Below are positions 42,940 to 62,291 of a stretch of 64,000 nucleotides of DNA, in pieces. The position numbers were made by a program, and so were the translations under genes. The first letter of the stretch is position 1. Every line of letters starts with the position of its first letter. The stretch spans positions 1-64,000 of the forward strand of contig JAEMWC010001374.1 in assembly GCA_016490735.1 (NCBI GenBank). The letters are read 5' to 3'. The DNA is from Pachyseris speciosa (taxonomy: Eukaryota > Cnidaria > Anthozoa > Scleractinia > Pachyseridae). Under the pieces are notes generated by a model. That model ran no database searches, was not told the origin of the DNA, and was given only the letters and a program-made list of their open reading frames with translations.

Positions 42940-43115
42940 AGCTATTATTATAACTCACGTGACGGTCGCATGATCTTTTCTAGCCAATCATAATGAAACA
43001 AGTTCCTTATTATAAATTCTTGAAGTAAAGTTTACTGACAATTTTTACTTAAAAAGTTTATGCTAAAGTTTGTAGACCGACACAGCTGTGCCGTGACGTC
43101 ATGACTTCTTTGGAT

Positions 43116-46931: not shown

Positions 46932-46941
46932 TAATATAATA

Positions 46942-46948
46942 TTAGATA
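46942..46948 (-). promoter_or_regulatory. TATCTAA box before POLB
   Basis: TATCTAA on the minus strand, 10 nt before the polymerase ATG, in AT-rich context. One of a family of like-placed boxes in this element. Confidence 0.6.
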
Positions 46949-47025
46949 TTATTTTTCTTTTATATATATTTTAAATATTATAATAAAATTTTTATTTAAA
47001 GAATTATTATGTAAACTATATTATA

Positions 47026-47759
47026 ATGAATAAGATTGAAATTAACGAGTGCGTTTACAACATTCATCCAGTTTATGATCTGTATGCTTCTGATAAGGAT
47101 GGAAATGTGATTAATATTGTCAAAAAAGTGTCAGTGAATGGATTTGATAATTGTAGAGGATACAGGAAATGTGGTGTGAGAAAACACGGTCAAAATGGGT
47201 TCAAAAAGTATTATGTCCATAGGTTTGTTTGGGAGTGTCATAACGGTATTATTCCAGAAGGCAAAGTGATCGATCATATTAATGATGTGAAAGATGATAA
47301 TCGTTTATGCAATTTACAGCTTGTGACACAGAGTCAAAATATTAAAAAATCAACAAATGATCGGGATTTTTCACATAATAAAAGTCCAAAATGTGTGAAA
47401 GCAACCAATATTACCACCAAAGAAGTTTCATATTTTAATAGTATGTATGCAGTCCAGCAACATCTTAATGTGAGTAATGGTATTGTAAAGAGAGTTTGCG
47501 ATGGAGTCAAATATTATAAATCAGGTGTCTCAAAAAAGATGGATATTCTTATAAATTCGAGTATGTTGAAAAAGAGGATTTACCAGCTAATCATTTTAAA
47601 TCAGCTAACAAACGTAAAAATAGAGTTCCTGATGAGGAAAAAAAGAGTCACCATGCGTTGTCAATGAAAAAATGGACAAACAAAGAGTATAAATGTCCAA
47701 GATGTGAGAAAGTGATGAAAAACAATAATAGACAATATCATAGAAAAACTTGCAATTAA
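47026..47759 (+). pseudogene. HNH endonuclease with C-terminal zinc motif, one frame break
   Basis: The first 213-residue frame has an N-terminal module (YDLYASDKDGNVIN, like the NUMOD4-type lead-in), then HRFVWECHNG, VIDHINDVKDDNR and NLQLVTQSQNIKKS, the HNH fold with its catalytic His-Asn-His residues. A DNA-binding segment like NUMOD1 (YFNSMYAVQQHLNVS) follows. The frame is lost at an A run (47532-47537); the adjacent frame continues to a stop at 47759 and contains CPRCEKVMKNNNRQYHRKTC, a C2HC-type finger. HNH genes of this kind are mobile endonucleases of large DNA viruses and phages. It stands alone on the plus strand beside POLB and lacks the TCTAA box. Confidence 0.75.
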
Positions 47760-48667
47760 ATCTTTCTTCTTGATAAGTATAATTTGCTTTCTTCTAAGTG
47801 TTTAGTTATTTCGTGGATCAAATCTTCGAAACAATTGCTCATGATGTACTTACACTTGTTTTTCTCATACATTTGCTTCATACTTTTTTGTTTATCTGAC
47901 ACTTGATACACACCAGTTGGACTTTTGAATTCAAGACATAGAGCATTGTATTTTCTAGTGGGATTCAACAGCATTAAATCACACTGACCAGCCATATATC
48001 CTTTGTTATAACTTCTGATTCTCATATTTGAGCTTATTTGATTTTCACCTAATCCCGCCACCATTAAAGCATCTTCATATTTTTTTCTGATGAATGATAC
48101 AATCTTGCAGTGCAGATCATTTTCACTTTCAATCATCAGCATGTTATTACTTCTATCATTGAACTGTTTGTAATATCCCTGTTTCCTGATTGATGGCAAC
48201 ACTTTAGATGTAACCCAATGTTTGAATTTTACTGCTTCCTGTTTTTTAGAGGACAGTATTAGTGAATAAAATCCTGATTCATTTATAAAAAAACATTTGA
48301 AAGTTTTTTCAATGGTCTCAGCACGAGGTAACGTTTTGTTACATCGTGAATCAGTGGCCTCAGCACGAGGGACCGTTTTGTTACATCGTGAATCAGTGGC
48401 CTCAGCACGAGGGACCATTTTTGTCCCCCGTGAATCAGTGGCCTCAGCATGAGGTAACGTTTTGTTACATCGTGAATTTATGCTGATTTTGTGGTCTCTT
48501 AAGATTCTATCATCAGATAAAACATGATCCTTGATTGCCTTTTGTGGATTTTTATAGTCAAGAATTTTAGCAATGTCTCTTCCTCTGAACCAAACGTTAT
48601 TTTTATCATCAACATAACAGTCTATTGACACATCTAATTCTTTGTTATCGTAGGAATATTTTTGCAT
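47756..48667 (-). CDS. BRO-N domain fused to VRR-NUC-like nuclease
   Basis: A 303-residue protein. Residues 1-60 and 121-165 form a BRO-N domain (VWFRGRDIAKILDYKN ... FINESGFYSLI ... VTSKVLPSIRKQGYY), a DNA-binding module common in large DNA viruses. Four copies of a 14-residue repeat (residues 65-120; typical unit SRCNKTLPHAEATD) are inserted in its middle. Residues 180-290 resemble a VRR-NUC / PD-(D/E)xK nuclease: Asp230 in AGQCDLML, Glu246-x-Lys248 in LEFKSPTG, and Gln260. Probable DNA-processing or self-mobilising enzyme; its role in the element is unknown. It ends overlapping the HNH gene tail by 4 nt. No TCTAA box upstream. Confidence 0.7.
   Translation of the reverse strand: MQKYSYDNKELDVSIDCYVDDKNNVWFRGRDIAKILDYKNPQKAIKDHVLSDDRILRDHKISINSRCNKTLPHAEATDSRGTKMVPRAEATDSRCNKTVPRAEATDSRCNKTLPRAETIEKTFKCFFINESGFYSLILSSKKQEAVKFKHWVTSKVLPSIRKQGYYKQFNDRSNNMLMIESENDLHCKIVSFIRKKYEDALMVAGLGENQISSNMRIRSYNKGYMAGQCDLMLLNPTRKYNALCLEFKSPTGVYQVSDKQKSMKQMYEKNKCKYIMSNCFEDLIHEITKHLEESKLYLSRRKI
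48282..48476 (-). repeat. In-frame 42-bp tandem repeat within the BRO gene
   Basis: Four units of 42 bp built on GTGAATCAGTGGCCTCAGCA (plus-strand view) with minor differences. Length divisible by three keeps the BRO frame open. It lies between the two conserved halves of the BRO-N domain. Confidence 0.85.
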
Positions 48668-48819
48668 TTGTATATTATATTATAATAATTTATTTTTTAA
48701 ATTCATTTTCGACCTATGTTTAAATATAGTCAGGAATAATAATATTCTTGGCTACATATAATAGCAAACAACAGATATACTGTAGGGTCTACTCACATAT
48801 ATGTTAGATAATTTTCTCT

Positions 48820-49769
48820 TTATAATATGTCTTTTAAATCCTTGAACGGGATCCAACTGTTAAATTCGTCACTGTAACCCTTCCACTTCACTAAAGCTTG
48901 TTTCTTCTTGTAATCTCTGCGAATGACTTTATCAATACGGAATACATCCTGTCTGGCTTTCAATAATTCAGCTTCATAAAAACTCCCTTGTATTTCTTCA
49001 TCGTTGAGATCTTTTAGTTTGTAAGTGACTGGATTAGTGTACTGGATTTTATCAACTGTAAACACTTCTTCAGTCCAATTTGGTGTATAGCCCTTGTCGA
49101 ACACATTCCGTTTATACTTGGATATTCGGACCTTGTCACCTATTTTAAATTTTGGTTTCTGTTTTAATGTTTTCATATCACCATACAAATTGAAGTAAAC
49201 AGTTCCTTCGTTCCTCTTATCAGATGCTTCAACGGGTGTCATCTTTGTGCTTGAATGTTTGGTATTATTATACTGTTTCACTAATTTTGGTAACATGTCT
49301 AAATACTGTGTATTACCTTGAACAGTGAACTGCTTCCACATTTTGGATTTAATTGTCCTATTCCATCTTTCAACTACTGATGATTTCTCTTCATTCTCAG
49401 TTGAGTACATCTGTACACTATGTTTCTCTAGCAAGTCCTTCAAGTGTTTGTTGTAAAACTCTTTTCCCTTGTCGACCCATAAATACTGTGGTTTTCTACC
49501 TTCCTTGAATATTATTTGAATGCTTCAGTGACAGATTCACCTTTCTTATCCTTCAATGGGACAATCCAACCATATTTGCTGAAGACATCAATAACCATAA
49601 GAAGATATCGATAACCTTTATTCCATTTACTGAACTGTTGCATTTCAACTAGATCACTTGCCCATATTTCATCAATTTTATTTACAATCACACGCCGCCG
49701 AGTGAAATTTCGTTTTATGGGTGCATGTAATTCATCAGCTAGTTTTTCTTGCCAGTTTTCTTCACTCGA
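48820..49769 (-). pseudogene. INT: Polinton rve integrase with chromodomain, one frame break
   Basis: The upstream frame contains LADELHAPIKRNFTRRR, then the rve core with the first catalytic Asp in EIWASDLVEMQ and the segment YRYLLMVIDVFSKYGW. The frame changes near 49508-49518. The next frame has the second Asp (LWVDKGKEFYN), the catalytic Glu in SVVERWNRT about 33 residues later, an SH3-like region (FKIGDKVRISKYKR) and a C-terminal chromodomain (IDKVIRRDYKKKQALVKWKGY). All three acidic residues are present, but split across two frames. No ATG was seen. The N-terminal part overlaps the end of the phospholipase gene in another frame. It inserts the element, making the 6-bp duplication. Confidence 0.9.
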
Positions 49770-50377
49770 CGGCTTTTTCCGTTTTTTGAAACACCGAGAC
49801 CAAGTTTCTGTTTTTTGTCGATTAAGAATCTAGCTGTTTGACCCCATTTTGGCATCTCACCATATGGTATTTGATCTAGTGACTCGACCATTGTTCTATC
49901 ACAATCGCCTTTGTCTTTTTTCATATCATAACAAATATCGTGGTAAGCTGCTATTTCATCCACCTTATTGTAAGGTTGTACATTCCATTTCAAGACCTCG
50001 CCAGTATTTGGATCATATTCCAACTGCTCATGCAATGGATTGTATGGTCCCATATATTTATATTTACTTGGTGTCCAACCACTTTTCGGTTTAGGAAGCT
50101 TGCCAATAACCTTATGAATGTCAATAGCACCGCCATAATCTAATCCTTTGATATCTGTTTTGTAACGAATATTTGGTCTCACTTTTGTTGAGAGTTGTTT
50201 CAAAGCTTCTGACCCAACCTTTGTGATTGCAGGCTTTGCGAGGGAAAGTCCTTTGTCAATTAATTTCTTTTGCAGCTTTGGATTTCTCATTGCTTCTGAT
50301 GCATAATATCTACCCATTTCAACACCCTTCTTCGCTAAATAAGGGACTCCATGTTCCAAAAATCCTGTTAGCGCCAT
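49739..50377 (-). CDS. Virion phospholipase A2-like protein (VP1u-type)
   Basis: A 212-residue protein beginning MALTGFLEHGVPYLAKKG, with a helical N-terminal region. YMGPYNPL at residues 108-115 is the calcium-loop motif Y-x-G-P-x-N, and AAYHDICYD at 143-151 holds the His-Asp catalytic pair, as in parvovirus VP1 unique-region phospholipase. In parvoviruses this activity breaches endosomal membranes during entry, and a like role is inferred here. The C-terminus is strongly basic (KNGKSRRVKKTGKK). It sits between the integrase and the zinc-ribbon gene. It has no TCTAA box directly before the ATG, so it may be read from an upstream start. Confidence 0.75.
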   Translation of the reverse strand: MALTGFLEHGVPYLAKKGVEMGRYYASEAMRNPKLQKKLIDKGLSLAKPAITKVGSEALKQLSTKVRPNIRYKTDIKGLDYGGAIDIHKVIGKLPKPKSGWTPSKYKYMGPYNPLHEQLEYDPNTGEVLKWNVQPYNKVDEIAAYHDICYDMKKDKGDCDRTMVESLDQIPYGEMPKWGQTARFLIDKKQKLGLGVSKNGKSRRVKKTGKKN

Positions 50378-50421
50378 ATCTGCGGCCGAATCTAGTATGC
50401 CCGCCCCTTCAGACGGGCTAT

Positions 50422-50580
50422 TCAGTTTCCCCGATTTCTGACAAATTTAGTCTTTGTGATTCCACATTCAGCACAAGTACATTTCATCACAGTTCGACCA
50501 TTTTTTGTCTTTTGATATCTTTCACTTCCTGGTACACACTCAGTCTGCTTCTTCTGTTTCACACAATATGATTTTACCAT
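50422..50580 (-). CDS. Small zinc-ribbon protein (DUF5679-like)
   Basis: A 52-residue protein with cysteines at 6, 15, 34, 36 and 39. The pattern YCVKQKKQTEC ... TKNGRTVMKCTCAECG matches the small DUF5679-type zinc ribbon found in viral and plasmid genomes. The second cysteine of the first CxxC is Gln here, so metal binding may use Cys15 or be weakened. A TATCTAA box lies 12 nt before the ATG and includes the stop codon of the protease gene. Function unknown; possibly a virion or transcription-associated factor. Confidence 0.65.
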   Translation of the reverse strand: MVKSYCVKQKKQTECVPGSERYQKTKNGRTVMKCTCAECGITKTKFVRNRGN

Positions 50581-50592
50581 TATACCATTAAG

Positions 50593-50599
50593 TTAGATA
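50593..50599 (-). promoter_or_regulatory. TATCTAA box before zinc-ribbon gene
   Basis: TATCTAA, 12 nt before the ATG. Its last three bases are the stop codon of the upstream protease gene. Confidence 0.6.
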
Positions 50600-51047
50600 T
50601 TTTTGAAGTAGTCTATGATGAATCTGTGATTGACTCTTGTGTCTGTTGGATCAAATTCAGCATTATGTATTGTATTAAGAATGGATCTGCCTTTTTGTCT
50701 CTCAAGAAGATAGTACAAACACCAATATCCACATAATACTGATTCCCTTTCTTGTATCTCATCACCAGAGTATTCAAGTTGTTTACCGCTTGCAGCCATG
50801 TATTTCTGTACTTCTGTTGGCATCATTAAACCGAAAGAGTCGAAGTATTCACAGTATTTATCATTTTTGAAATTCCTATAACAAACCCAGTGAGTACCAG
50901 GTCCAATTTTGGAATCAAGATTGACTATCCCACATTCATTCTTTTTTATTTGTCTCGGCATATTGTCTCTTGAAAATACTCCTCTAAAATGTTTTATTCC
51001 AAGTTGTTTAACCCAATTGATTAAATCAAAGTTGGATAAGGGTTTAT
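50593..51047 (-). CDS. PRO: Adenovirus-type cysteine protease (C48/C5 family)
   Basis: Counted from the first ATG (50961) the catalytic set is His24 (GTHWVCYRN), Asp41 (EYFDSFG), Gln70 (EIQERES) and Cys77 (VLCGYWCLYYL), the Ulp1/adenain fold. It processes capsid precursors in adenoviruses. The frame stays open upstream of that ATG and encodes a segment typical of Polinton proteases (LSNFDLINWVKQLG, then FRGVFSRDNMP), so the real protein is probably about 30 residues longer. However, no in-frame ATG was found before this segment; the left limit given is the end of the neighbouring gene. Start by non-ATG codon, frameshift or loss of the start are all possible. Confidence 0.85.
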
Positions 51048-51905
51048 TTACAAAATGGTTCCTAGTATGGGGATTGAATTGAATGGACTGTTTTTGCCTA
51101 GTAGAAGTCCTTTTCCTTTGGTTTTTCTTTTTTTTTTCATTCCCATGCCTATTGGGTTATTCCATGTACCAAAAACAGGAGGAGATTGCCATGGAATCAT
51201 AGCATGTTTCCCACCTTTCTTTCTGGGTACAATGTCATCTGGAACATGAACAGGTATTGACCGTCTTGGACGGCTGCTTTCAACATGCAAACCTTTTCCA
51301 GTTAATTTTCTGATTGCTTCTATAGCCAAAGGAATTCCAATGCTGGCGAGTATTGTTCCAATACCCTTTCCAGTCTGCGCTTTTGTTGGTTTTATAACAA
51401 CGTCTCCACCATACTGCATTTTTTGGATAACATCAGCCATCTGTCTCGTATTCAATAAATTTCCTACATTCAATAATTGGGATAAATTGGCATTAGGAAT
51501 AAGAAATCCTCCTTTTTGTTTCTTTCCAAATAGTTTATCAATGCCGAGACTTGCTAATGAAGAAAGAGCACCTGTAGCCAATGCTGGAGCCGCTTTAGCT
51601 ACTGCTTTACCTGCATAAGGCAATAGTCTTGTTCCAAGTGAAAAAAGACTGGACCAAAGAGAGCCTCCTTCTTGGACTGATTTTCTGATCTGTGCTTTGG
51701 ATATCTTTACATCAGCACCTGTTCCATTTCTCTGTGATTTGGCTAATTTTTTTATCTGTGTTTTTGTCAACATCATTTGATCACCTCCAGTGAGATCTCC
51801 ATGTGCGAGTCTCAATGTTACCGGTGAATTTGTTTGTATAGCTTTTGCAAGCCTTTGCTTCTGACTGTTTGAAAGTCTTACTCCATGAGGATGATAAGTA
51901 GTCAT
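51048..51905 (-). CDS. Putative minor virion / membrane-active protein
   Basis: A 285-residue basic protein. The N-terminal 80 residues contain repeated Lys-rich helices (MLTKTQIKKLAKSQRNG, ISKAQIRKSVQEGG). The middle has hydrophobic, glycine- and alanine-rich segments (AGKAVAKAAPALATGALSS; GIGTILASIGIPLAIEAIRK). The C-terminus is very basic and glycine-rich (GMGMKKKRKTKGKG). Position next to the major capsid protein and this amphipathic, basic make-up suggest a minor capsid or core protein comparable to adenovirus pVI/pX, but no sequence motif proves it. Intact. No clear TCTAA box is seen before the start. Confidence 0.6.
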   Translation of the reverse strand: MTTYHPHGVRLSNSQKQRLAKAIQTNSPVTLRLAHGDLTGGDQMMLTKTQIKKLAKSQRNGTGADVKISKAQIRKSVQEGGSLWSSLFSLGTRLLPYAGKAVAKAAPALATGALSSLASLGIDKLFGKKQKGGFLIPNANLSQLLNVGNLLNTRQMADVIQKMQYGGDVVIKPTKAQTGKGIGTILASIGIPLAIEAIRKLTGKGLHVESSRPRRSIPVHVPDDIVPRKKGGKHAMIPWQSPPVFGTWNNPIGMGMKKKRKTKGKGLLLGKNSPFNSIPILGTIL

Positions 51906-51954
51906 ATAATATATGTTTATACTAAATTGTATTTAATACAAACAATCATTTAAT

Positions 51955-53247
51955 TTACATTGATCTCAGAATTAATTTTCCATCAGTCTTTCTCATCTCA
52001 ATATCCTGCTCATAGAGTACCAATGCATAAACACTGTAATCAACAGTTGTTGCAGCACTCAAAGTGTATTTGAAAGTCAGTTTTGTCATTCCATCTTTAA
52101 TATCTTGTTTCTGTTTTGTCAGATCAAAATAAATGAAAGGGAATATTGTACCAAAGTTTCCTCTTGTGAGAAGGGTACTTTCACTGAATTCATTTACAGC
52201 TTCAACATATTTCAAAACATCTCTAAATACTCTTGTTGGTTCTGTTGATGGTTTATAATGAACCTCTGGATAATCATTTCCATTGCCAACTTCAAGATAA
52301 CAATCAGTCAAAGTTCGCAGATGTCCAACTGCTCCAACAGCAAATGTGTTGTACAAGAATTTATTAGCTGTCTGAGATGCATCATTAGCATCATTGATGA
52401 TGAATACAAAAACATGCCTGGGTTTGTTTATTCCTGTGGAAATACGGAAATTGGCAGTCTGCTGTCTTGTTGAATTGCCTCTTTCGACCATTTCTCTCAT
52501 GTAAGTCCACTTTCTGTTGTCAAGATACTTGCTCATGTATAAGGACTTTCCCGCAGAATTGAAAACAATGCGAGGAACTATTAGCTGGAATTTAGTTAGT
52601 ATCACACGGCAATCATCAGCAGTTTTCCAAATCAAATTAGCATCACTCTCACGTGTTAATTTCACCTCTATTTTTGAGTTAGGCATGAGTTCATCCCAAA
52701 AGCTCTTGAAAAAACCGTATCTGTTCAATGCTATCTCTGCATTTACTTCACCACCACCATTAAGCAATGCTTTACGAGCTGCGAAACCTTTGTTATAAGC
52801 AGCCTGAGCCGCTCTTTCTTCAGCATTCCTATTTGTGTCAAGATAGAAGAACTCATTGGTTCCCTGACTTACAGCATAACCCTGTGAATACTCAAGCAAT
52901 GACTTAATATTTGTGGCTTGGTTGGCATCTCTACACTCATAAACATCAAGACCATTCATTTTTACATTAATGGTTTTAATAAGAGCGTGAGCTGAATTAA
53001 CAATACCACTATGATCATTAGCAGCAATGTTAGCTCCATCTGCAAGCTTGTTTACTTTGAAAATAACATTAAAACGGGCATTATACCAGTCAAATGGTGT
53101 AGTCTCTCCACTGTTATCAACAACAAAACGGTAGCCTGTTTCACTCTGATGAGCATTGTTTTCTACTACAGTATTAAGTGCTGTCTCTAGTTCGAACACT
53201 ACATCTTCATATCTTTCGATATATTTTGAGTCACGATAGTTTGACAT
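51955..53247 (-). CDS. MCP: Major capsid protein, double jelly-roll
   Basis: An intact 430-residue protein. Recognised by features shared with Polinton/adintovirus hexon-type capsid proteins: an early segment FDWYNARFNVIFKVNK, then NGLDVYECRDANQATNIKSL, YGFFKSFWDELMPNSKIEVKL and the C-terminal strand set (VDYSVYALVLYEQDIEM). These proteins form trimers that tile an icosahedral capsid. A TATCTAA box stands 11 nt before the ATG. It is followed downstream by the putative minor virion protein and preceded by the small basic protein, in a morphogenesis cluster. Confidence 0.92.
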   Translation of the reverse strand: MSNYRDSKYIERYEDVVFELETALNTVVENNAHQSETGYRFVVDNSGETTPFDWYNARFNVIFKVNKLADGANIAANDHSGIVNSAHALIKTINVKMNGLDVYECRDANQATNIKSLLEYSQGYAVSQGTNEFFYLDTNRNAEERAAQAAYNKGFAARKALLNGGGEVNAEIALNRYGFFKSFWDELMPNSKIEVKLTRESDANLIWKTADDCRVILTKFQLIVPRIVFNSAGKSLYMSKYLDNRKWTYMREMVERGNSTRQQTANFRISTGINKPRHVFVFIINDANDASQTANKFLYNTFAVGAVGHLRTLTDCYLEVGNGNDYPEVHYKPSTEPTRVFRDVLKYVEAVNEFSESTLLTRGNFGTIFPFIYFDLTKQKQDIKDGMTKLTFKYTLSAATTVDYSVYALVLYEQDIEMRKTDGKLILRSM

Positions 53248-53258
53248 ATATTATTGTG

Positions 53259-53265
53259 TTAGATA
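53259..53265 (-). promoter_or_regulatory. TATCTAA box before MCP
   Basis: TATCTAACAC..., 11 nt before the capsid ATG, lying between the two genes just beyond the stop of the upstream small basic protein. Confidence 0.65.
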
Positions 53266-53269
53266 AAAG

Positions 53270-53500
53270 TTATTTTATTTTACGAGGTCGACCTCTCTTT
53301 CTTTTGATTAAACCACCAGTCTGGCTCACACTCTCAGTTCCACTTTTTCTCTTTTTCAAAAGTTCTATGATTTTGTCGCCAGCTTTTTTGCCAGCATGTT
53401 CACCAATTGTTGTTGCTGCTTTTTTTCCAGCTGTTTTGATCATATCAGTCACAATACCTTCACCATGTTGTTCATATTTTTTAAACTCAAACCGTTTCAT
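53270..53500 (-). CDS. Small basic virion-like protein with AT-hook-like tail
   Basis: 76 residues. The middle is an amphipathic alanine/lysine helix (TAGKKAATTIGEHAGKKAGD) and the C-terminus ends GLIKRKRGRPRKIK, with the GRP core of an AT-hook. Its size and charge resemble adenovirus core peptides (mu/pX-like), and small proteins of this type stand beside capsid genes in animal Polintons. Role inferred: DNA condensation or minor virion component. Upstream box is a variant (CCTAA, 6 nt before the ATG). Confidence 0.6.
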   Translation of the reverse strand: MKRFEFKKYEQHGEGIVTDMIKTAGKKAATTIGEHAGKKAGDKIIELLKKRKSGTESVSQTGGLIKRKRGRPRKIK

Positions 53501-53513
53501 ATACTATTAGGTT

Positions 53514-54299
53514 TTATAATTCTGTCTCTCTCAAGAATAACTCAATATACCAATCTATCCCATTTAAATCGACTGGAGCTCTAGAAGAGTCTGTGACATA
53601 AAAACGTATTGAGCTGATTGTATGTGTTGAGACTGGATTCCATGAAAGAAAACGAGGTTTGTAAGTGAAAGGTAAACTTCTAACGAGATCTGTGACAGGA
53701 ATAACAGCGATTGTATTTGTGCTATTTCCATCAACAATGCTATCTGTCACCAAATCACAATTGATATAAATTTCATCTACTCCTCTTGTAATATCAGGTA
53801 GATTTGTTCCATATTCTGTGGCTGGAACTAATTTTGAATCGAAACCGATAAGTTTTCTGAAATCAAGATTTCTTAGATCCACTCGATAGTTTTCATCAAG
53901 TTCAATCAAAATGCGATATGTTGACAAAACGAAATACATGTTAATACCATACAGGAATTTTGATTTGTCTGTTTCAGATGGATTCAGTACATGGCTGTTT
54001 TTTCTCATATACTCATGAATGTAACTATTGATATCGTCGTATGAATACATCCCGTTAACGAATGTTATTGTTTCCCAGTTTACACCTTTGTCATAGCTGT
54101 ATTTCATTTGATTATTCCCAAAAATATCTCTGATATTGTACCAACTGTATGTCATATTGATGACATTCACAGCCATTTCATATTTCAAATCATTCGTTAA
54201 TTTAAGAGGTGTATTGAATCTTTTTTCAAAATCATGACTCTTGCTGACACCAATTTTGTCTCTGTTTTTACTGTTGAATCGTAATGAAATTTCTGTCAT
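53514..54299 (-). CDS. PX: Minor capsid protein (penton, single jelly-roll)
   Basis: An intact 261-residue protein. The N-terminal strand SLRFNSKNRDKI, the aromatic segment MTYSWYNIRDIFGNN and the C-terminal block ISSIRFYVTDSSRAPVDLNG with WYIELFLRE are characteristic of the Polinton minor capsid (penton) protein. It should occupy five-fold vertices and anchor fibres, of which this element encodes two. A TATCTAA box lies 11 nt before the ATG and within the last codons of the upstream gene. Confidence 0.88.
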   Translation of the reverse strand: MTEISLRFNSKNRDKIGVSKSHDFEKRFNTPLKLTNDLKYEMAVNVINMTYSWYNIRDIFGNNQMKYSYDKGVNWETITFVNGMYSYDDINSYIHEYMRKNSHVLNPSETDKSKFLYGINMYFVLSTYRILIELDENYRVDLRNLDFRKLIGFDSKLVPATEYGTNLPDITRGVDEIYINCDLVTDSIVDGNSTNTIAVIPVTDLVRSLPFTYKPRFLSWNPVSTHTISSIRFYVTDSSRAPVDLNGIDWYIELFLRETEL

Positions 54300-54305
54300 A
54301 TACTT

Positions 54306-55169
54306 TTACATTAGATATTTCATCATTATTTTATTCAACTCACCGGTTTTTAGGATTCCCAGTCTGTTCAATGTATGCAATATTTTTGTGAATTCATTTT
54401 GAACATTTCTGCTGTTGTTGCCGGCTGAAATAGATCCACCAAGCAACTGTAGTCTTGAAAGCATGTCACCCAAAAATGCACCCCTTGAACCCATTGCACC
54501 TCTTCTTCCCATGCCTGAACCAATAGTTTGTGCACCTTCCTCAACGGCTTTAATTCTTTTTCGGTACTTTTGTAATAATTTGATCTCTTGAGTCAATTCA
54601 TATATCTTTTCTTTATTTTTATCCCTCTTCGTTTTGGTTTGTGATAGATGAGCTTTTTTTATTCCAACATCTTGGGTTAATTTACCAATCATTTTGTCAT
54701 ACTTGTTGATGTCGATTTCACCATCCATATATGATTTAAATATCTGTGATGGAGGAGGCAATTTATGTTTCATCAATGTTTGAATATCCTCAAGTGAAAA
54801 ACCTTTGTCAAGATCTGACTTATATGGTGATTCTGTTTCAGTCATCATTTTAGGTTTGTAATCAATTGGTAATGTTGTTTTCATTGGTACTGATTCAGGT
54901 AACGTGTTCATCAGCATAAGATCTTCAAAACCAGATGTCAAGGCTTTTTGATTCTTTTTCAACTGTTTAATAACTTCATCCTGTTTTTCGTCGACACTTT
55001 CTTTCACACTCTTCTGGACATCAATAGAGGGTTTCAGCAATTCTGATGTTGTATCATATGCATCCTGTTTTCTGTATTCATGAGTCTTGATAACATCACG
55101 AACTTCTCTAGTTTTATTTCCGGCTTCAATTCCACTTTTAAGAAGACTTTTCATTCGTTCTATATCCAT
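54306..55169 (-). CDS. Coiled-coil Polinton structural protein (PW-like)
   Basis: 287 residues from the first ATG (reading MDIERMKSLLKSG). Rich in charged helices, including VKESVDEKQDEVIKQLKKN and a long coiled coil near residues 175-215 (KRDKNKEKIYELTQEIKLL). Then comes a glycine-rich hinge (GSGMGRRGAMGSRG) and a C-terminal helix. I know no enzymatic motif in it. The neighbouring penton and ATPase genes and the length fit the PW-type virion proteins of Polintons, but assignment is by context. The gene starts at the divergent box at 55181-55194. Confidence 0.6.
   Translation of the reverse strand: MDIERMKSLLKSGIEAGNKTREVRDVIKTHEYRKQDAYDTTSELLKPSIDVQKSVKESVDEKQDEVIKQLKKNQKALTSGFEDLMLMNTLPESVPMKTTLPIDYKPKMMTETESPYKSDLDKGFSLEDIQTLMKHKLPPPSQIFKSYMDGEIDINKYDKMIGKLTQDVGIKKAHLSQTKTKRDKNKEKIYELTQEIKLLQKYRKRIKAVEEGAQTIGSGMGRRGAMGSRGAFLGDMLSRLQLLGGSISAGNNSRNVQNEFTKILHTLNRLGILKTGELNKIMMKYLM
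54311..54317 (-). promoter_or_regulatory. TATCTAA box before penton gene
   Basis: TATCTAATG..., 11 nt before the penton ATG, overlapping the final codons of the upstream coiled-coil gene. Confidence 0.6.
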
Positions 55170-55180
55170 ATACAATTGTG

Positions 55181-55194
55181 TTAGACTAATCTAA
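55181..55194. promoter_or_regulatory. Divergent TTAGA-TCTAA promoter
   Basis: TTAGACTAATCTAA: an inverted pair of TCTAA boxes with four bases between. On the minus strand the box is 11 nt from the coiled-coil gene ATG; on the plus strand it is 11 nt from the ATPase ATG. The two genes share only this 36-bp intergenic region, so the pair most likely serves both directions. Confidence 0.7.
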
Positions 55195-55205
55195 ACTATT
55201 TACAT

Positions 55206-55844
55206 ATGGAAATCCCTAATTATGATATTCAGGGTTTAAAGAATTCATTCAGACAGTTGTATCCGTATATGCCAAAAGACACTTTCAGGATGCTGCTGGC
55301 TGGTAATTCTGGATCTGGAAAGACAACATTGTTCATGCATCTGATTATGGAACCGTTGGTCTATTATGATCAGATACATCTTTATGCAAAAAATTTGGAT
55401 CAAGACAAGTACAAATATCTTCGGAAAGTAATGGATGAAATAAGCAGTCACATTGGATATCCTGCCTTGGTTTGCAGTCAAGAAGAGATATTGCCAGTTG
55501 AACAAATAAAAGACACAAATTTGCAGCGATTGGTTGTTTTTGATGATTTCGTGACTGACAAGAAACAAGATCAGATAATCAGCTATTTCATTCAGGGGAG
55601 ACACAAGAACTGTTCAGTCATATATCTCACACAGTCATTCTATGGATGCCCAAAATCAATCAGACTCAATTGCAGTCACTTCTGTCTTTATGATTTCCCA
55701 TCATCAAGAGAAAGGAATCTGATTGCACAGGAGCTTGGAATCGACAAGAAGAAATACATTGAAGCAACCAAAAAACCATATTCCTTCTGTTATGTTGACA
55801 AGCCGATGAAGACAATCAAGAGAAATTTTTATGGTGCTGTTTAA
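55206..55844 (+). CDS. ATP: A32-type genome-packaging ATPase
   Basis: An intact 212-residue protein of the FtsK/HerA superfamily. Walker A is GNSGSGKT (33-40) and Walker B is LVVFDD (109-114), followed by DQIISYFIQGRHKNCSVIYL with the sensor-type region and LTQSFYG. It pumps DNA into preformed capsids in Polintons, virophages and poxviruses. It is the first gene of the rightward block and opens 11 nt after the AATCTAA half of the divergent promoter. Its stop codon lies beside two further TCTAA boxes. Confidence 0.95.
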   Translation: MEIPNYDIQGLKNSFRQLYPYMPKDTFRMLLAGNSGSGKTTLFMHLIMEPLVYYDQIHLYAKNLDQDKYKYLRKVMDEISSHIGYPALVCSQEEILPVEQIKDTNLQRLVVFDDFVTDKKQDQIISYFIQGRHKNCSVIYLTQSFYGCPKSIRLNCSHFCLYDFPSSRERNLIAQELGIDKKKYIEATKKPYSFCYVDKPMKTIKRNFYGAV

Positions 55845-55854
55845 TCTAATCTAA
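55843..55854 (+). promoter_or_regulatory. Doubled AATCTAA box
   Basis: Two overlapping AATCTAA boxes (55843-55849 and 55848-55854), 11 and 6 nt before the ATG of a 24-codon frame. Confidence 0.5.
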
Positions 55855-55860
55855 TATTAT

Positions 55861-55935
55861 ATGGCAATCAATAATTTCCAAAATGTTGAAAAACAGGAGA
55901 ATCCAAAAACAGAAAGAATCGAAAAATTAATCTAA
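55861..55935 (+). CDS. 24-residue micro-ORF with its own TCTAA box
   Basis: Reads MAINNFQNVEKQ... and stops inside the next TCTAA box. It starts at the spacing from the box seen for real genes of the element. The peptide is acidic/basic mixed without a membrane segment. It could be a leader for the fibre transcript, the remnant of a lost third fibre tail, or chance. No homologue known to me. Confidence 0.35.
   Translation: MAINNFQNVEKQENPKTERIEKLI
55929..55935 (+). promoter_or_regulatory. AATCTAA box before long fibre
   Basis: AATCTAA, 12 nt before the fibre ATG. Its TAA is also the stop of the preceding micro-ORF. Confidence 0.6.
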
Positions 55936-55947
55936 CAAGATGATATA

Positions 55948-58900
55948 ATGGGAGTTTTTAATGCTCAAATAAATCAAGATAAAACAGAAACTGGTACTGG
56001 TGAAAGAGGCCCAGCTGGTCCAGTTGGTCCCAAAGGTGAAAAAGGTGATAGAGGTGATAGAGGTCCAAAAGGTAATACAGGTGCAATTGGTCCACAAGGA
56101 GCTACTGGAGCTGTTGGTCCTAAAGGTGATGGATTTAGATTAACACAAGATGGTAATTATGACATTGAAAATAAACGTTTGACAGATGTTGGTGATCCAG
56201 TAAATCATTATGATTCTGCTAACTTGGGATATGTTAATGATGCTGTTTTATCAATTGAAGGAACACGTGTTAATCCATTCAAATTTCTTCTTGAAGATAC
56301 ATCAAAAACAACTATTCTTAGAAATGCGAATAATCTGCAATTGGAAGATTTTGACAAAAGCCCTTACTCATTTAATAAAATAGCCTTGTCTTTTGTTATT
56401 CCTACTGCTGGTCTTACAACTGTTCTTCGTTTTGATCTGACACAATTGGAAGTTTCAAAGTACACTTTAGTTGTTGAGTTTTATACTGATGGTAGCCCAA
56501 ATAATGCAACAGTCGATGACGACAATCTGTCATCTAATTTAATTGAAAGAAAGGATTCAATAAAAAGAGCATTTCCAAAGACTCATCTTGTTGATGGTTA
56601 TCTCAAAAGAATATTCTTCCTTGAAAAAACAAGTCATGGTTCCACATCAATGGAGTTATTGTTGATTTCACCATATTTACAAAATAATAAAAAACATTAT
56701 GTTATAGTTTATGGTGTTTATGGATTTTCTAATATCATTTTATCACATATTCACGACCCAGCTTTTGAAATAGAAAACGGTAATGTTGCATTCGATGGTA
56801 AAATTGACATGAAATTAAACAAAATCATCAACCTGCAGGATAACCCCTCAAACCCACAAGACGCTGTAAACAAATCTTACGTTGATAATAAAACAGCTGA
56901 TTTCCTTAATAAAAACACTGGTGGTGTAATTTATGCACCTGTCAGCATGAATAGAAATGATCTGTTTGGCATACCAGATAACCCAATATTTGGTTATTCA
57001 GCTGTAAATAGAAACTATGTGAACAATAATTTTTTGAAACTAAATGGAAGCGTTGCGATGACTTCTGATTTGAATCTTGGAGGTAACAAATTGACTAATG
57101 TATCAACACCAACTGCAAACGATGATACAGCCACAAAGGGGTATGTTGATACTGAAATTGCTGGTATTGCTGGCATTGATGTTTCTCTATTTCTTAAAAA
57201 AGATGGAAGTGTTGTAATGACTGGTGATCTTGACATGGGTGACAATAAAATAACAAATGTTGGATCTCCAAACTCTGATAAAGATTCTGCCAACAAAAAG
57301 TATGTTGATGACCTTGTTTTTTCAGCATCTGGAGCACAAAAAAATCCATTCGCTTTTCTGTTAAAAGACAAATCCAAGTCTTCTGCAGTCAGTGGTGTGG
57401 AAAACCTTCAAATTGAGAATTTTGACAGATCACCATACCACATAAACAAGTCGTCATTGTCTTTTTTCATCAAACGAAGAGGCAACTTTACATCTAAAAT
57501 TCGTTTTGATGTTTCATCATTGAGTAATGGACGGTACACATTTGTTTCTGAGTTTTACTCACCATCAGATCCAAGAAGTGCTGCAATCAGTTTAACCCTT
57601 CCAACAATTAATATGCGTGACGCTGGACTGTCATTTCAAAAAGCTTTTACTAGAACTCCACATGTTGATGGTTATATTAAAATTCTTTTCCAGATAGAAA
57701 AAACCAGTGGTGGGCAAGCGGCAATACAGGTGGAACTTTCCAGCACTGCTCCTGCGTCTAACACCAAAACACATATCATCGTTTATGGGGCCTATGGCTA
57801 TCATACCAATTTGTCTTACTTTCTCCATGACCCAGCTTATGAAATTGAAAACGGTCATGTTGCGTTTGGTAGTAATGTTGACATGAAATTAAACAAAATC
57901 ATCAACCTACAGGATAACCCCTCAAACCCACAAGATGCTGTAAACAAAAAGTATGTTGATGCTGAAATTGCTGGTATTGATGTTTCTCAATTTCTTAAAA
58001 AAGATGGAAGTGTTATAATGACCGGCAATCAGGATTTTGGGGGTTTATTATTAGAGGCCATGGGATAGGAAACCAACCAGCAGATCTTGTGAATAAATCA
58101 TATATTGACACTAATCTCGCATCAAAAAGCAGTATCGGTCAAACTCTACTTCGAGATGGAACACAAGAAATGACTGATAATTTAAATCTGGCTGGTAACA
58201 AAGTGATCAACTGTGCAACACCAACTGCTAACACAGATGCTGCCAACAAAAGATATGTTGACCAGGCCCCTTTTCTTAAACTTGTCGGAGGTCAAATGGC
58301 TGGTGATATTGACATGGGTGATAACACACTCGCAAACTTAAAAGAAGGAACAAATAAAACCGATGCTGTAAATTTAGATCAATTAGAAAAAAGTCATATT
58401 TCATCTGCTTCTCATCCAAAGAATGCTTTCAAATATTTGATGAATGATATTGATGAAGTCAGTACTGAATATGGCTTGACAGTTAATGGATATGTCAATT
58501 TACCTCGTTCACCACATTTGATTTCAAAAAAGGTCATTGATATAGACTTGAATAAAGAAGCTAATCATATTTACAGAGCTAGAATTGGATTTAATATGTA
58601 CACAATAAAAGATGGAAAATACACTTTCATTCTTGAATGGCTATTTCCTGATTATGAAGGAATGAATCTTAGTAGTGTAACATTCAGTGCAACTGGTGGA
58701 ATTACAATTCATAAAACTGTAGGGAGAAAATTTGATAACAGAAATGAAGATCATTCGAGATATTTATTATGGATTGAAAAACCATCAGCAAGTTCACCAC
58801 CTGAATATTTATATTGTACGATTCATATTAATGCTAACCCAACTTATCCAAATAAGTACAAAGTTCATTGTGTTGCATATGGTATTGATTTCGAAGCAGT

Positions 58901-59621
58901 AGACGTTCCATCAAGTGTTTACGACTTCTCTGAACCTTTCAAAATCGTTAATGAGGAAATACAATTACAAACTGATTTAGATTTGAATGGTTTTGACGTG
59001 AAAGAAAATGAAAATTGGTTGTTTGGTGGAGACAATGGTGAATTGACAATGCTGAATAATATTAATATGAACACTTATCTGATAAAAGAGGCCAAACTTG
59101 GTGGTGATTTAAATATGAATGGCTATAGAATTCATAACGGTGCTTTGAATCTATTTCGTTCAAGCGTTACAGGTGTAATTATGGAAACGGCTTTCGATTT
59201 GGGTGGATTTGCTCTTTACAGGCCGAAATTAGGAGGTGATCTAGATTTGAATGGGAATAGAATAATTGGTCAAACAATTTATATAAATGCCTTCGTTGAA
59301 GTCAAACAAAACCATGACTCGAATGTGTTGAAAACTGTCTTAATTGATGGGGGAAAACAGATGGTTGTTTTAAACAATTTTTATTTCAAACGTTTACACA
59401 TTATTCAAAACGCTGGAACTGGAATACTTGTGTTCGTAAATAAAAGAGATGGACAAGCAAGTAGGTCAATAACAAAGCGCTATACAATTAGTAATACTCC
59501 TAATATCACAACTGTCGATATTAATCTACAATTATATAATGGCTTCTTTTACATTGACTATTCACACCCCAATTCAAATGCTTTTGATTTGTCCTTTTTG
59601 CTTGAATTTATTATTAACTAG
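55948..59621 (+). pseudogene. Long fibre: collagen stalk and tail-fibre-type repeats, one frame break
   Basis: The first frame (706 residues, to 58068) opens MGVFNAQINQD, then about 15 Gly-X-Y triplets (GPAGPVGPKGEKGDRGDR...). It continues with alternating short repeats ending DAVNKxYVD or close variants (about nine over both frames) and ~170-residue beta-rich modules (starts NPFKFLLED and NPFAFLLKD). The second frame (58069-59621) continues the same repeats, has a third module (NAFKYLMND) and a C-terminal beta-rich knob. The frames separate at a run of five Gs at 58039-58043, so this was one gene of about 1,220 codons. Collagen plus such repeats resembles phage tail fibres; host attachment is inferred. 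Confidence 0.8.
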
Positions 59622-59641
59622 TACAATAGTCTTCATGAATT

Positions 59642-59648
59642 AATCTAA
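59642..59648 (+). promoter_or_regulatory. AATCTAA box before short fibre
   Basis: AATCTAA, 12 nt before the ATG of the short fibre gene, in AT-rich intergenic DNA. Confidence 0.65.
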
Positions 59649-59660
59649 AATAATATTATA

Positions 59661-60590
59661 ATGGGTGTATTTAATCATTCACTAAATCAAGACAATAAAG
59701 GTGATAAAGGTGATAAAGGTGATGGATTCACATTAACACAAGATGGGTATTTTGATATTGGAGGAAATAAAATAACTAATGTTGATGAAGGAACATCAGA
59801 TGATGATTGTGTAACAAAAAAACAACTAGATTTGAAGTTAGATAGAGCAACTTTTGTTATTTCAAATTCACTGCCTGGTATACCTGTTCTTGATGGAATT
59901 TCAATTGCTTTGATACCATCTCTGTCTGTATTGACAACTGATGCTGATGATAGAGTTTCTAGTTGGCTGGATCCTGTTAATAATGTCACTTTTACACAAA
60001 CTTCTAATTCGAAAAAACCATTGTTACTAAGAGATTCAGTCAAGAAAAAGTTTTTCATACGTTTTGATGGCAGTGATGACTACTTGGAGAACAGTTCATT
60101 TGATGTTTCTAAAGTTGCTGGACGGAGTGGAAATACTTGTACTGTTATAATCATTGCAAACACAAAACAAACAAAATGTCAATCACAATTTCAATGGGGT
60201 AAGGGTGCTGTTAGATTTGGTGTTCATCTGCCTTGGATTAATGGAGCATGTTATATTGATTTCGGTTCTATATTAAATGGAAGACTTGCTGTTTCTTCTT
60301 TGGCTAATCTGACGGGAAATATTGAAGTTTTTACTGTTCGAGTTGATGGTTATAATATGGAATTTTTCAGAGGTATTTCATCAATGACACCAGTTGGAAC
60401 AGGATCAATTTCAGCAACATTGACTGGTAGTGCACAAGAAATGTTTATTGGTTGTCAAGTTCATACAGATGGTTCTGCAATTAATTTTTGTGAAATGGAT
60501 CTTTATGCTTTTGCTGTTTGGCAGAAATCACTAACTAACCAAGAACTGAGAAATATGTATCGTTTCATTGAAGATTATTTTGATCTTTGA
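59661..60590 (+). CDS. Short fibre: collagen stub and LamG/ConA-like knob
   Basis: An intact 309-residue protein. It opens MGVFNHSLNQD, nearly the same tail as the long fibre, then a short GDKGDKGDKGDG collagen stub and one tail-fibre-type repeat (GGNKITNVDEGTSDDDCVTK). Residues about 85-305 form a predicted concanavalin-A/LamG-like jelly roll: FIRFDGSDDYLENSS, TVIIIANTKQTK, AQEMFIGCQV and the terminal DLYAFAVWQKSLTNQELRNM typical of such lectin folds. The shared tail implies both fibres plug into the same penton. Glycan binding is inferred from the fold only. Confidence 0.7.
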   Translation: MGVFNHSLNQDNKGDKGDKGDGFTLTQDGYFDIGGNKITNVDEGTSDDDCVTKKQLDLKLDRATFVISNSLPGIPVLDGISIALIPSLSVLTTDADDRVSSWLDPVNNVTFTQTSNSKKPLLLRDSVKKKFFIRFDGSDDYLENSSFDVSKVAGRSGNTCTVIIIANTKQTKCQSQFQWGKGAVRFGVHLPWINGACYIDFGSILNGRLAVSSLANLTGNIEVFTVRVDGYNMEFFRGISSMTPVGTGSISATLTGSAQEMFIGCQVHTDGSAINFCEMDLYAFAVWQKSLTNQELRNMYRFIEDYFDL

Positions 60591-60608
60591 ATTATGTAAT
60601 CAATTATT

Positions 60609-61028
60609 ATGAAGCAGATTATAAGATTTGTACGATGGTTCATTCGGGATGCTGAACGGAAAAACCCTGGTGTTGATAAGAGGATTTTGAAATCAGCTTT
60701 GGTTTACCAGTTTCTATATCACAAACATTTCAACAAATATATTGAAGTGAGAGATATTATCCAGGAGCATATAGGCATTGGATTAATCGGTCCCGGTGAA
60801 GGCTGCTTAACACATTTTTTGGAGCATACTCTTGGTTGGATTGATACATTACAGACACATGGTATATTACACGATGCCTTCGGTAGGTTTTATGTCAAAC
60901 ATGCACTTGATAGAGGATATTCTTATGCTCTACCGTCTTTCTTGACGACTAAAATTAGTAAGTTATCACCTCTAAGTGGGCAATTGTCTGGTTTGTGGTA
61001 CTGTGTGTTGAACAGAATCGTTATATAA
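60609..61028 (+). CDS. Hypothetical Polinton protein, 139 residues
   Basis: Reads MKQIIRFVRWFIRDAERKNP and is mostly helical and basic, with a short glycine-rich turn (GIGLIGPGEG) and a histidine-rich middle (THFLEHTLGWIDTLQTHG). I do not recognise it. It follows the short fibre by 18 bp and precedes the next gene by 9 bp. No TCTAA box is present, so it may be read from the fibre transcript. Confidence 0.55.
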   Translation: MKQIIRFVRWFIRDAERKNPGVDKRILKSALVYQFLYHKHFNKYIEVRDIIQEHIGIGLIGPGEGCLTHFLEHTLGWIDTLQTHGILHDAFGRFYVKHALDRGYSYALPSFLTTKISKLSPLSGQLSGLWYCVLNRIVI

Positions 61029-61037
61029 GCATATTGT

Positions 61038-61523
61038 ATGAAAGAGCGAAAAAGCATATTCAGCTGGAACCATATTTCAGGTGAATTAACAGAAGATCAG
61101 GTAAATGAATTAAAAGCCTATTACCACACATATCACAGAAAGTGTTGGGCTCATAAACAGGCTGTTAAAAGGTTCAAAAAATGGAAATTACTGGGGAATT
61201 CCTTGTCCATCATCTTTGCAACTGGGGGTCTCGCCACAAGTGTGGCAACAGGTGGTGTTAGTTTGGTAGCCATCAGTACAGCAGCACTTTTGATACAAGG
61301 GTGGATGAAGCATAAAAACCTAGATTTGAAAATCCAGAATTGCACATATGCTTATCAAAGCTATCAACATCTACTCAATTCAATAAAAGACAAGTTGAGA
61401 AGTGGTGATTTTGATGCTTCAAGTATACAAATCTCAATGAAGAATATCGATGATTATGTGACTGATAATAGTCCAATTATTGATAAGTACCTACTGAAAT
61501 ATGATGAAAAATTCACTGCTTGA
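61038..61523 (+). CDS. Membrane-hairpin protein (SLATT-like), 161 residues
   Basis: A charged N-terminal helix leads into a glycine- and alanine-rich hydrophobic hairpin (residues about 53-88; SIIFATGGLATSVATGG then VSLVAISTAALLIQG). A helical C-terminal domain follows (LKIQNCTYAYQSYQHLL). The layout resembles SLATT-type or pore-forming two-helix proteins. A virion membrane or holin-like role is possible but unproved. It overlaps the convergent VLTF3-like gene by 11 bp. Confidence 0.5.
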   Translation: MKERKSIFSWNHISGELTEDQVNELKAYYHTYHRKCWAHKQAVKRFKKWKLLGNSLSIIFATGGLATSVATGGVSLVAISTAALLIQGWMKHKNLDLKIQNCTYAYQSYQHLLNSIKDKLRSGDFDASSIQISMKNIDDYVTDNSPIIDKYLLKYDEKFTA

Positions 61524-62076
61524 TAATACTAATAATCTTATCAAATCTCAACAATAGAATCTCAACCCAATATTGATCATAAAATTTTAATGTCTTCTTT
61601 GATCTTGTAACTATTATTTCATCAAATGGTAGATCAAGCATTATGAATATTTGCTTAAGCATAAATTTGGTGCTTATCATTCTTTTACGATTCTTATTCA
61701 CCGAAGGGATGATAGTGTCTATCTCTTCGAATATTTTCAATATTTTACCCTTATCTTTTACTGAAATTTGAAATCTATTCTTGCAACATATACCATTTAT
61801 CACATTTTCAATATGGTACTTCCGGTGATATACAGATTTTCGCCGTATTTTATACATATTATTATGAAAGTCAACGTACTCCTTACAATAGTCATAGCCG
61901 TGGACTGAACCACAATTTAGACAAACATTTTCACCATCATCATTAAACATTTTCTGTTTATCACAGCAAGGTGCTTTCACACTTTTAACAACTTTGACCA
62001 ATAGCTGATCACAAAAAGGACATGTCAACTCCCCCATATTCTTCAATTCATTGTGGATTACTAAATTACAACTCAT
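61513..62076 (-). CDS. Zinc-ribbon transcription factor, VLTF3-like
   Basis: 187 residues. An N-terminal zinc region has paired cysteines (TCPFCDQLL; APCCDKQ; NVCLNCGSVHGYDYC), then RRKSVYHRKYHIENVI. A helical C-terminal domain (VNKNRKRMISTKFMLKQIF, KTLKFYDQYWVEI) follows in the order of poxvirus late transcription factor 3. Such factors direct late gene expression in large DNA viruses and occur in some Polintons and virophages. It stands alone on the minus strand at the right end. A near-match box TATCTCA lies 10 nt before the ATG. Assignment is by pattern, not by alignment. Confidence 0.55.
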   Translation of the reverse strand: MSCNLVIHNELKNMGELTCPFCDQLLVKVVKSVKAPCCDKQKMFNDDGENVCLNCGSVHGYDYCKEYVDFHNNMYKIRRKSVYHRKYHIENVINGICCKNRFQISVKDKGKILKIFEEIDTIIPSVNKNRKRMISTKFMLKQIFIMLDLPFDEIIVTRSKKTLKFYDQYWVEILLLRFDKIISIIKQ

Positions 62077-62086
62077 CTATATTATA

Positions 62087-62093
62087 TGAGATA
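62087..62093 (-). promoter_or_regulatory. TATCTCA near-match box before VLTF3-like gene
   Basis: One base off TATCTAA, 10 nt before the ATG, same strand and spacing as the exact boxes. Confidence 0.4.
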
Positions 62094-62119
62094 TTATTTC
62101 TTTATGCAGCTAACACATG

Positions 62120-62291
62120 ATAGGCGATGACTCATTCCCTGTTTTCCGAGAATGTCACGCTTGGTGATTTTTCCGAGAATTTCAGATTAAACAACTATAT
62201 ATATCCATCAGATTGAAAAATGTGCTGAAAATTAAATAACTATAATCATTCATTTGAAAAGTGTGCTGAAACCGCCAAACACTATACTACT
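62120..62291 (-). repeat. Polinton right terminal inverted repeat
   Basis: Reverse complement of the left repeat without the 10-bp insertion; ends ...CACTATACTACT and is followed by TATGAC at 62292-62297. Confidence 0.97.

Follow-up and report, generated by a model that had tools for sequence, protein, structure and literature searches.

Mavirus and the EMALE type 4 elements carry a TCTA motif in AT-rich surroundings, which is common to the late genes of CroV according to the accessible part of PMC8547959. This agrees with the TCTA-type promoter that our initial annotation of the present DNA had ascribed to mavirus and CroV. As stated in the part of PMC10945749 available, a response to CroV was confined to type 4 among eight EMALE types, and this is the type that bears the late motif of that virus. 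A TCTAA-type box in animal Polintons was not found described in the accessible portions of the literature on these elements, and in two papers devoted to them the word promoter does not occur.

The window analyzed here, the whole 64,000-nucleotide stretch of Pachyseris speciosa DNA, contains a Eupolintovirus (Polinton/adintovirus) element of 19.5 kb. It exhibits the terminal inverted repeats of Eupolintoviridae and the gene set typical of that family, namely PolB, packaging ATPase, major capsid protein (MCP), and integrase. Genes were assigned by Pfam, with the packaging ATPase identified as Pox_A32. PolB shares 82% identity with a protein named PolB of Corynactis coral adintovirus, which is placed in Eupolintoviridae. 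The MCP, with 2172 protein relatives, gave no Pfam match and owes its label to the first reading of the sequence, while the integrase, whose frame is broken, was recognized by eye in the translation together with a chromodomain. A sequence search gave no PDB relatives of POLB, MCP, or the VLTF3-like protein, tblastn of MCP and POLB against phages gave no match, and no related DNA was obtained from public collections (viral_contigs with MCP and with the MCP, ATPase, and POLB alignments; genome_contigs).

Exact TCTAA was located 10–12 nt ahead of the ATG of POLB, the zinc ribbon gene, MCP, penton, the coiled-coil gene, the ATPase, and both fibre genes (Table 1). The initial annotation had listed nine exact boxes, including one at a micro-ORF, and all nine are present at the spacings it gave, on both strands as it proposed. 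A column table of the eight boxes exhibited AT-rich flanks on both sides. The coiled-coil gene and the ATPase lie on opposite strands with 36 nt between their start codons, and both boxes are situated inside this interval. The one-mismatch box reported for the VLTF3-like gene was also recovered as claimed. The CCTAA reported for the 76-residue gene does exist, but it lies only 6 nt from the ATG and is hence out of register.

Table 1. Coordinates of the element, its TCTAA boxes, variant boxes, and the VLTF3-like protein in the window.
Feature	Position	Strand	Start codon	Spacing (nt)	Remark
Eupolintovirus element	42758..62291				bounded by terminal inverted repeats
Terminal inverted repeats	42758-42939 and 62120-62291				95-99% complementary
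POLB box TCTAA	46942..46946	-	46931	10	
HNH gene variant TGTAA	47010..47014	+	47026	11	
BRO/VRR-NUC gene variant TATAA	48680..48684	-	48667	12	
52-aa zinc ribbon box TCTAA	50593..50597	-	50580	12	TAA doubles as protease-frame stop codon
285-residue gene variant TATAA	51917..51921	-	51905	11	
MCP box TCTAA	53259..53263	-	53247	11	
Penton box TCTAA	54311..54315	-	54299	11	
Coiled-coil gene box TCTAA	55181..55185	-	55169	11	as AGTCTAA; back to back with ATPase box
Packaging ATPase box TCTAA	55190..55194	+	55206	11	
Tandem box TCTAATCTAA	55845..55854	+	55861	11 and 6	ahead of 24-codon micro-ORF
Long fibre box TCTAA	55931..55935	+	55948	12	TAA doubles as micro-ORF stop codon
Short fibre box TCTAA	59644..59648	+	59661	12	seen in window copy
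VLTF3-like gene variant TCTCA	62087..62091	-	62076	10	
VLTF3-like protein, 187 aa	61513..62076	-			zinc ribbon; candidate box reader

The placing of TCTAA was compared with dinucleotide shuffles, in which 0.22 genes had the box in register as against 8 of the 16 genes of the element. Three ORFs (48820-49410, 50593-50961, and 58170-59621), corresponding to the broken integrase, a protease without an ATG ahead of its conserved part, and the long fibre continued in another frame, were left out of this count as their first ATG, judged by eye, seems internal; the score is 7/18 when these are included and the 52-aa zinc ribbon is excluded. In this set of 18 non-overlapping ORFs of at least 60 aa, the 7 had TCTAA at 9–13 nt against 0.24 in shuffles (largest value 2 among 300 shuffles), and the host DNA of the window gave 1/35 ORFs with 0.25 expected. 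A search that scored every pentamer in every 3-nt spacing window also ranked TCTAA at the top, a score that was matched by 0/1000 shuffles. Even a count free of gene calls identified TCTAA as the most enriched pentamer 10–12 nt before the ATGs of the element (11/42 against 2.82, first of 1016). Its total number in the window, 149 against 189 expected, showed no overall enrichment; TCTAA is special by placing only, not by abundance.

The remaining 8 of the 16 genes lack exact TCTAA, and the count rises to 14/16 only when TNTAA is allowed, a pattern formulated post hoc from the data. In the four other copies with a match, the HNH gene is preceded by TGTAA (3/4) or TATAA (1/4). In 20 other copies, the 285-residue gene has TATAA (17/20) or TCTAA (3/20) in the same place, representing an interchange at one site. 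The region upstream of the VLTF3-like gene, read in 3 of 8 loci, contains TCTCA in two and TCTTA in one. POLB retains TCTAA at the mapped ATG in only 1/12 other copies with a match; within the lineage, POLB, BRO, HNH, and further genes often have TATAA, TGTAA, or another AT-rich sequence at a similar place. The preceding frame ends on this TAA at the zinc ribbon, the long fibre, and the 76- and 161-residue genes.

Conservation was evaluated at mapped starts in 40 other copies (20 nearest and 20 more diverged), all of which come from one 984-Mb host genome. TCTAA was kept at MCP in 40/40 copies, at the ATPase in 35/36 (and 16/17 in further copies of the lineage), at penton in 33/36 (the remaining three have TCTAC), at the coiled-coil gene in 28/33 with TCCAA in some diverged copies, at the long fibre in 23/27, and at the zinc ribbon in 10/11, whose start was unmapped in three more copies. 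With the window copy counted, TCTA occurred at 9–13 nt from 41/41 MCP starts and 37/37 penton starts. Since the whole upstream stretch is often near-identical among the 20 nearest copies, their conservation reflects recent spread, and the evidential weight therefore falls on the 20 more diverged copies, in which the penton (14/17) and coil (11/16) boxes are incompletely kept. Among 21 distinct upstream sequences of MCP, all 5 columns of the box were invariant, but only 3/29 columns upstream and 4/11 in the spacer; in ungapped windows, penton, coil, and ATPase lacked so sharp a contrast. The steady spacing amid varying neighboring bases noted from the single sequence is thus borne out by diverged copies, which keep the box while its flanks change, most clearly at MCP.

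The genome also contains a second, distant lineage of Polintons, which was sampled at ATPase starts and in one 2.7-kb piece. It had TCTAA at 1/21 readable ATPase starts, whereas at 19/21 a TATA-like run lay no more than 15 nt away. The TCTAA box is hence lineage-specific and not general to animal Polintons, which suggests that lineages within one genome differ in upstream signals, as EMALE types do. The initial proposal of a virus-type promoter code in an animal Polinton is supported in part, in that the box is real, positioned, kept by diverged copies, and similar to that of mavirus and EMALE type 4, but it was too wide for animal Polintons generally and for all genes of this lineage.

The tandem box precedes a 24-codon frame, for which the TCTAA claimed 11 nt ahead does exist. 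This frame turned out to be what is left in a shortened copy of a small gene, 72–83 codons long, that lies between the ATPase and the long fibre. A box and an ATG occupy this site in 18/20 near copies. The shortened forms terminate exactly where the fibre box stands. In two copies (L016 and L018), the fibre is preceded by a tandem box resembling that of the small gene. Displacement of the small gene by a fibre cassette was considered and dropped, as the gene is whole ahead of the fibre in 7/20 near copies.

The VLTF3-like protein matched Pfam Pox_VLTF3 at 26.0 bits (cut-off, 25), and the A2L and TFIIB zinc ribbons matched it below cut-off. Its 150 best-scoring copies are 93–100% identical, and 148 have no internal stop. 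The host genome contains 84 Pox_VLTF3 matches, all above cut-off, of which seven are stronger than that of the element and may be giant-virus remains. Fold prediction from the single sequence was uninformative (mean pLDDT, 36.7), and no Pfam match to further poxvirus transcription families was detected among the element ORFs scanned. It is plausible that this protein reads the box.

Judging from position and conservation, the box is probably a virus-type core promoter or initiator that is the element's own and specific to its lineage. It would lie at the transcript start of virion genes, so that each gene would be served by a separate promoter and its transcripts would have only a very short leader. 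In function it would be of one type with the TCTA late promoter that mavirus and CroV use. We infer that it would act in transcription and be read by a virus-type factor, either the element's VLTF3-like protein or one from a helper virus. TCTAA marks the virion genes, and the TATAA or TGTAA that other genes often have at about the same distance may separate expression classes. A more tentative extension is that the lineage runs its own virus-type expression code in the host nucleus, where the VLTF3-like protein would read TCTAA for late virion genes and TATAA/TGTAA would serve the others, with no giant virus needed. Against the promoter reading stand the half of the genes without exact TCTAA, among them the VLTF3-like gene itself with its TCTCA or TCTTA, the rarity of the box at POLB in other copies, the incompletely kept penton and coil boxes, and the distant lineage without the box.

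The host RNA polymerase II might instead read the box, with no viral factor, as an initiator with the start inside it or as a weak TATA-like element, which we regard as possible though doubtful. The pyrimidine-pyrimidine-A of TCTAA is compatible with a loose initiator, the variants are TATA-like, and so is the run at ATPase starts of the distant lineage. However, an animal TATA box lies approximately 30 nt before the transcript start, so that with such a box 10–12 nt from the ATG transcription would begin within the gene itself. All 21 distinct MCP sequences keep the C of the box, a constancy that a plain TATA element would not require. Beyond the box, the 45 nt ahead of the MCP start contain no block of conserved columns, and host ORFs of the window rarely have the box. 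Reading by the machinery of a co-infecting giant virus, on which the Polinton depends or depended like a virophage, is unlikely. This would fit the core shared with the CroV late promoter (accessible part of PMC8547959), the response of EMALE type 4 alone (available part of PMC10945749), and the seven stronger Pox_VLTF3 matches, but the element encodes its own VLTF3-like gene and is not known to have a giant-virus partner.

A further alternative, in which the box chiefly marks a site of recombination between genes and was brought near the ATG by exchanges or deletions ending there, appears improbable. It would account for the shortened small-gene forms ending at the fibre box, the tandem box ahead of the fibre in two copies, and, for the 20 near copies, coil proteins that share 51–97% identity in local matches next to upstream DNA that is almost the same throughout. 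A recombination point would not, however, need the fixed spacing kept at MCP and ATPase, and the small gene is shortened, not displaced. Chance is highly improbable: the upstream DNA is AT-rich and 2/8 boxes (zinc ribbon and long fibre) have a TAA that doubles as a stop codon, but the dinucleotide shuffles and the MCP footprint in diverged copies speak against it. A splicing branch point, which TCTAAC resembles, was rejected because no AG was found by eye between box and ATG in 6/8 genes, the exceptions being penton and the long fibre.

A conserved, positioned box provides a concrete handle on capsid-gene expression in animal Polintons and bears on whether particles still form. From it, transcript starts can be predicted to within a few nucleotides and a candidate factor can be named, and in promoter logic it links animal Polintons with mavirus.

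Poxvirus late promoters have an AT-rich start element, TAAAT, that coincides with the start codon, and they use a VLTF3-type factor. The present element similarly combines an AT-rich start element near the ATG with a VLTF3-type factor, whereas its TCTAA lies 10–12 nt before the ATG. As with the type-specific promoter motifs of EMALEs, lineages within one host genome differ in upstream sequence, though the comparison here concerns two animal Polinton lineages. The closest likeness in motif is to mavirus and EMALE type 4 (accessible part of PMC8547959), in which a TCTA core in an AT-rich setting also stands upstream of the genes of a Polinton-related element; the TCTA core occurs here at 8/16 genes. 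Compared on motif, this locus differs in that it belongs to an animal element, has the exact box at half of its genes in place of nearly all, and encodes a VLTF3-like factor.

Every TCTAA lying 6–17 nt before an ATG of the Polinton element was listed. Exact boxes at 10–12 nt precede the POLB, zinc ribbon, MCP, penton, coiled-coil, ATPase, micro-ORF, and both fibre genes, as the initial annotation had claimed, and two more exact matches at this distance are intragenic. TCTAA 10–12 nt before an ATG occurs 11 times in the 19.5 kb of the element versus 6 times in the 44.5 kb outside it. A broader TNTAA pattern, which was formed post hoc after looking at the data, precedes 14 of the 16 element genes (1.75 in shuffles); the two exceptions are the PLA2-like and VLTF3-like genes. 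Six of the eight genes without TCTAA carry TATAA or TGTAA at 9–13 nt (0.61 in shuffles). In front of the 76- and 161-residue genes, the TAA doubles as the stop of the preceding gene, so the firmer cases are HNH, BRO, and the 285- and 139-residue genes.

Pfam matches among the element ORFs comprise an A32-type packaging ATPase, HNH, a PLA2-like domain, VLTF3, Endonuclease VII in POLB, BRO with a weak VRR-NUC, and fibre-like and collagen-like repeats, together with an adenovirus-type protease below the cut-off. The labels MCP, penton, and coiled-coil were assigned in the initial annotation; 2172 protein relatives were obtained for MCP and 2077 for the ATPase. Pfam detected no polymerase domain in POLB itself; the PF03175 polymerase domain is present in several of its relatives. 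Over the searched part, POLB shares 82% identity with the so-named PolB of Corynactis coral adintovirus, a virus that NCBI assigns to Eupolintoviridae. The host of the element is likely to be a cnidarian.

Coordinates of features in the window
Feature	Position	Strand	Remark
Element	42758–62291		Flanked by inverted repeats
Intragenic TCTAA match	46880 (ATG)		In POLB
Repeat inside the BRO/VRR-NUC gene	48309–48476		Four tandem 42-nt units
Integrase	48820–49760	−	Frame broken, by eye
Protease	50593–51060	−	Frame without ATG ahead of conserved part, by eye
Coiled-coil gene	54306–55169		
Micro-ORF	55861–55935		24 codons; stop inside the fibre box
Intragenic TCTAA match	57509		Four-codon frame
Long fibre	58041–58170	+	Place where the gene seems to run on in another frame as a 483-codon ORF, by eye

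The conservation of the box was read in other copies of the element. The best 98 of 4495 MCP matches in the same 984-Mb genome are full-length, and 97 of them have no internal stop. About 3 kb upstream of MCP was read in 40 other copies, namely 20 near copies whose MCP is 90–100% identical to that of the window, and 20 diverged copies found by a search with a distant MCP and absent from those best 98. Only starts that could be mapped to an ATG were counted.

TCTAA at 10–12 nt before mapped start codons in 40 other copies
Gene	Near	Diverged	Dropped of 40	Exceptions
MCP	20/20	20/20	0	
ATPase	19/19	16/17	4	One with TCTAA at 9 nt
Penton	19/19	14/17	4	Three with TCTAC, in register
Coiled-coil	17/17	11/16	7	Five with TCCAA, 9 nt from ATG
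Long fibre	12/15	11/12	13	
76-residue	0/20	1/18	2	

At MCP, the box is constant across the copies and its flanks vary widely. Such a sharp column-by-column contrast was not seen in ungapped windows at penton, coiled-coil, and ATPase, which is due in part to register shifts caused by small differences in length. The coiled-coil protein is only 35–97% identical between the copies (L009 to L048, local matches), and most of the genes beside it are better conserved, suggesting that this gene has been exchanged or changes rapidly. In copies L032 and L039, what seem by eye to be foreign insertions lie in the coiled-coil gene, as a series of similar units, and in the penton gene.

Five other genes, namely the zinc ribbon, the 285-residue gene, HNH, BRO, and POLB, were read in 20 of the 40 copies. 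Of 14 zinc ribbon matches, 11 had a mapped start; TCTAA precedes 10 of these and TGTAA the remaining one. TATAA precedes the 285-residue gene in 17 of 20 copies; the other three, all from the diverged set, have TCTAA at 11 nt. HNH gave four matches (TGTAA in three, TATAA in one). Among 14 mapped starts from 17 BRO matches, 10 have TATAA, two have TCTAA at 9 or 11 nt, and two have it further off, at 15 and 21 nt. TCTAA precedes a mapped ATG in only one of 12 POLB matches, so the POLB of the window is atypical; two others have TCTAA upstream of an unmapped start, and the remaining nine carry AT-rich sequence of other kinds.

Downstream of the ATPase gene, 18 of the 20 near copies keep both the tandem box and the ATG. 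In seven of the 20, the frame has 72–83 codons and lies whole between ATPase and fibre, the fibre start coming after it, and the remaining near copies have a shorter frame. By comparison of the copies, the micro-ORF is therefore a small gene in shortened form, preceded by a box of its own. In copies L016 and L018, a tandem box resembling that of the small gene precedes the fibre start.

A further 20 ATPases were drawn from a family search, of which 18 belong to the window lineage (82–99% identical). TCTAA lies at 11 nt in 16 of their 17 mapped starts, and the most distant ATPase (82%) has TATAA at 11 nt. The other two (48–49% identical) represent a second lineage, whose ATPase has at least 150 matches in the genome, some with stops. 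Among 21 readable starts of 22, one of them ATA, TCTAA was found in one and TNTAA at 9–13 nt in four; 19 have a TATA-like run no more than 15 nt away. One 2.7-kb piece of this lineage (52% GC, MCP 36% identical) contains no TCTAA 8–14 nt before any ATG. By these results, the box is lineage-specific. This GC-richer Polinton lineage was seen on contigs C84, C290, and others of the same genome.

The most economical reading is that the TCTAA box would act as a core promoter or as an initiator at the transcript start. Transcription from an animal TATA box starts approximately 30 nt downstream, so the distance between box and ATG is too short for such an element. The start codons of the divergent coiled-coil and ATPase genes are separated by 36 nt, within which both boxes lie. 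The box may be read by the element's VLTF3-like protein, by the host, or by a helper virus. The VLTF3-like protein of the window gave a Pfam match just above the cut-off; 84 VLTF3 Pfam matches exceed the cut-off in the genome, and 148 of the best 150 of 1988 matches to this protein have no stop. Seven Pox_VLTF3 matches on contigs C743, C283, C435, C234 (two places), C402, and C10 are far stronger than the others (E = 3e-20 to 8e-10), and could be relics of giant viruses or of a different element.

Mavirus and EMALE type 4 share a motif with a TCTA core in AT-rich DNA, which corresponds to the CroV late promoter (PMC8547959). Type 4 alone among eight EMALE types responded to CroV (PMC10945749), and according to one review all mavirus genes are preceded by the CroV late promoter (PMC6723459). 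The literature covered, which included few subscription papers and not the original description of adintoviruses, reports no such box for animal Polintons. As a predicted promoter motif, TCTAA is one more version of an established type; what is new, as far as could be seen, is its setting in an animal element with a VLTF3-like gene of its own.
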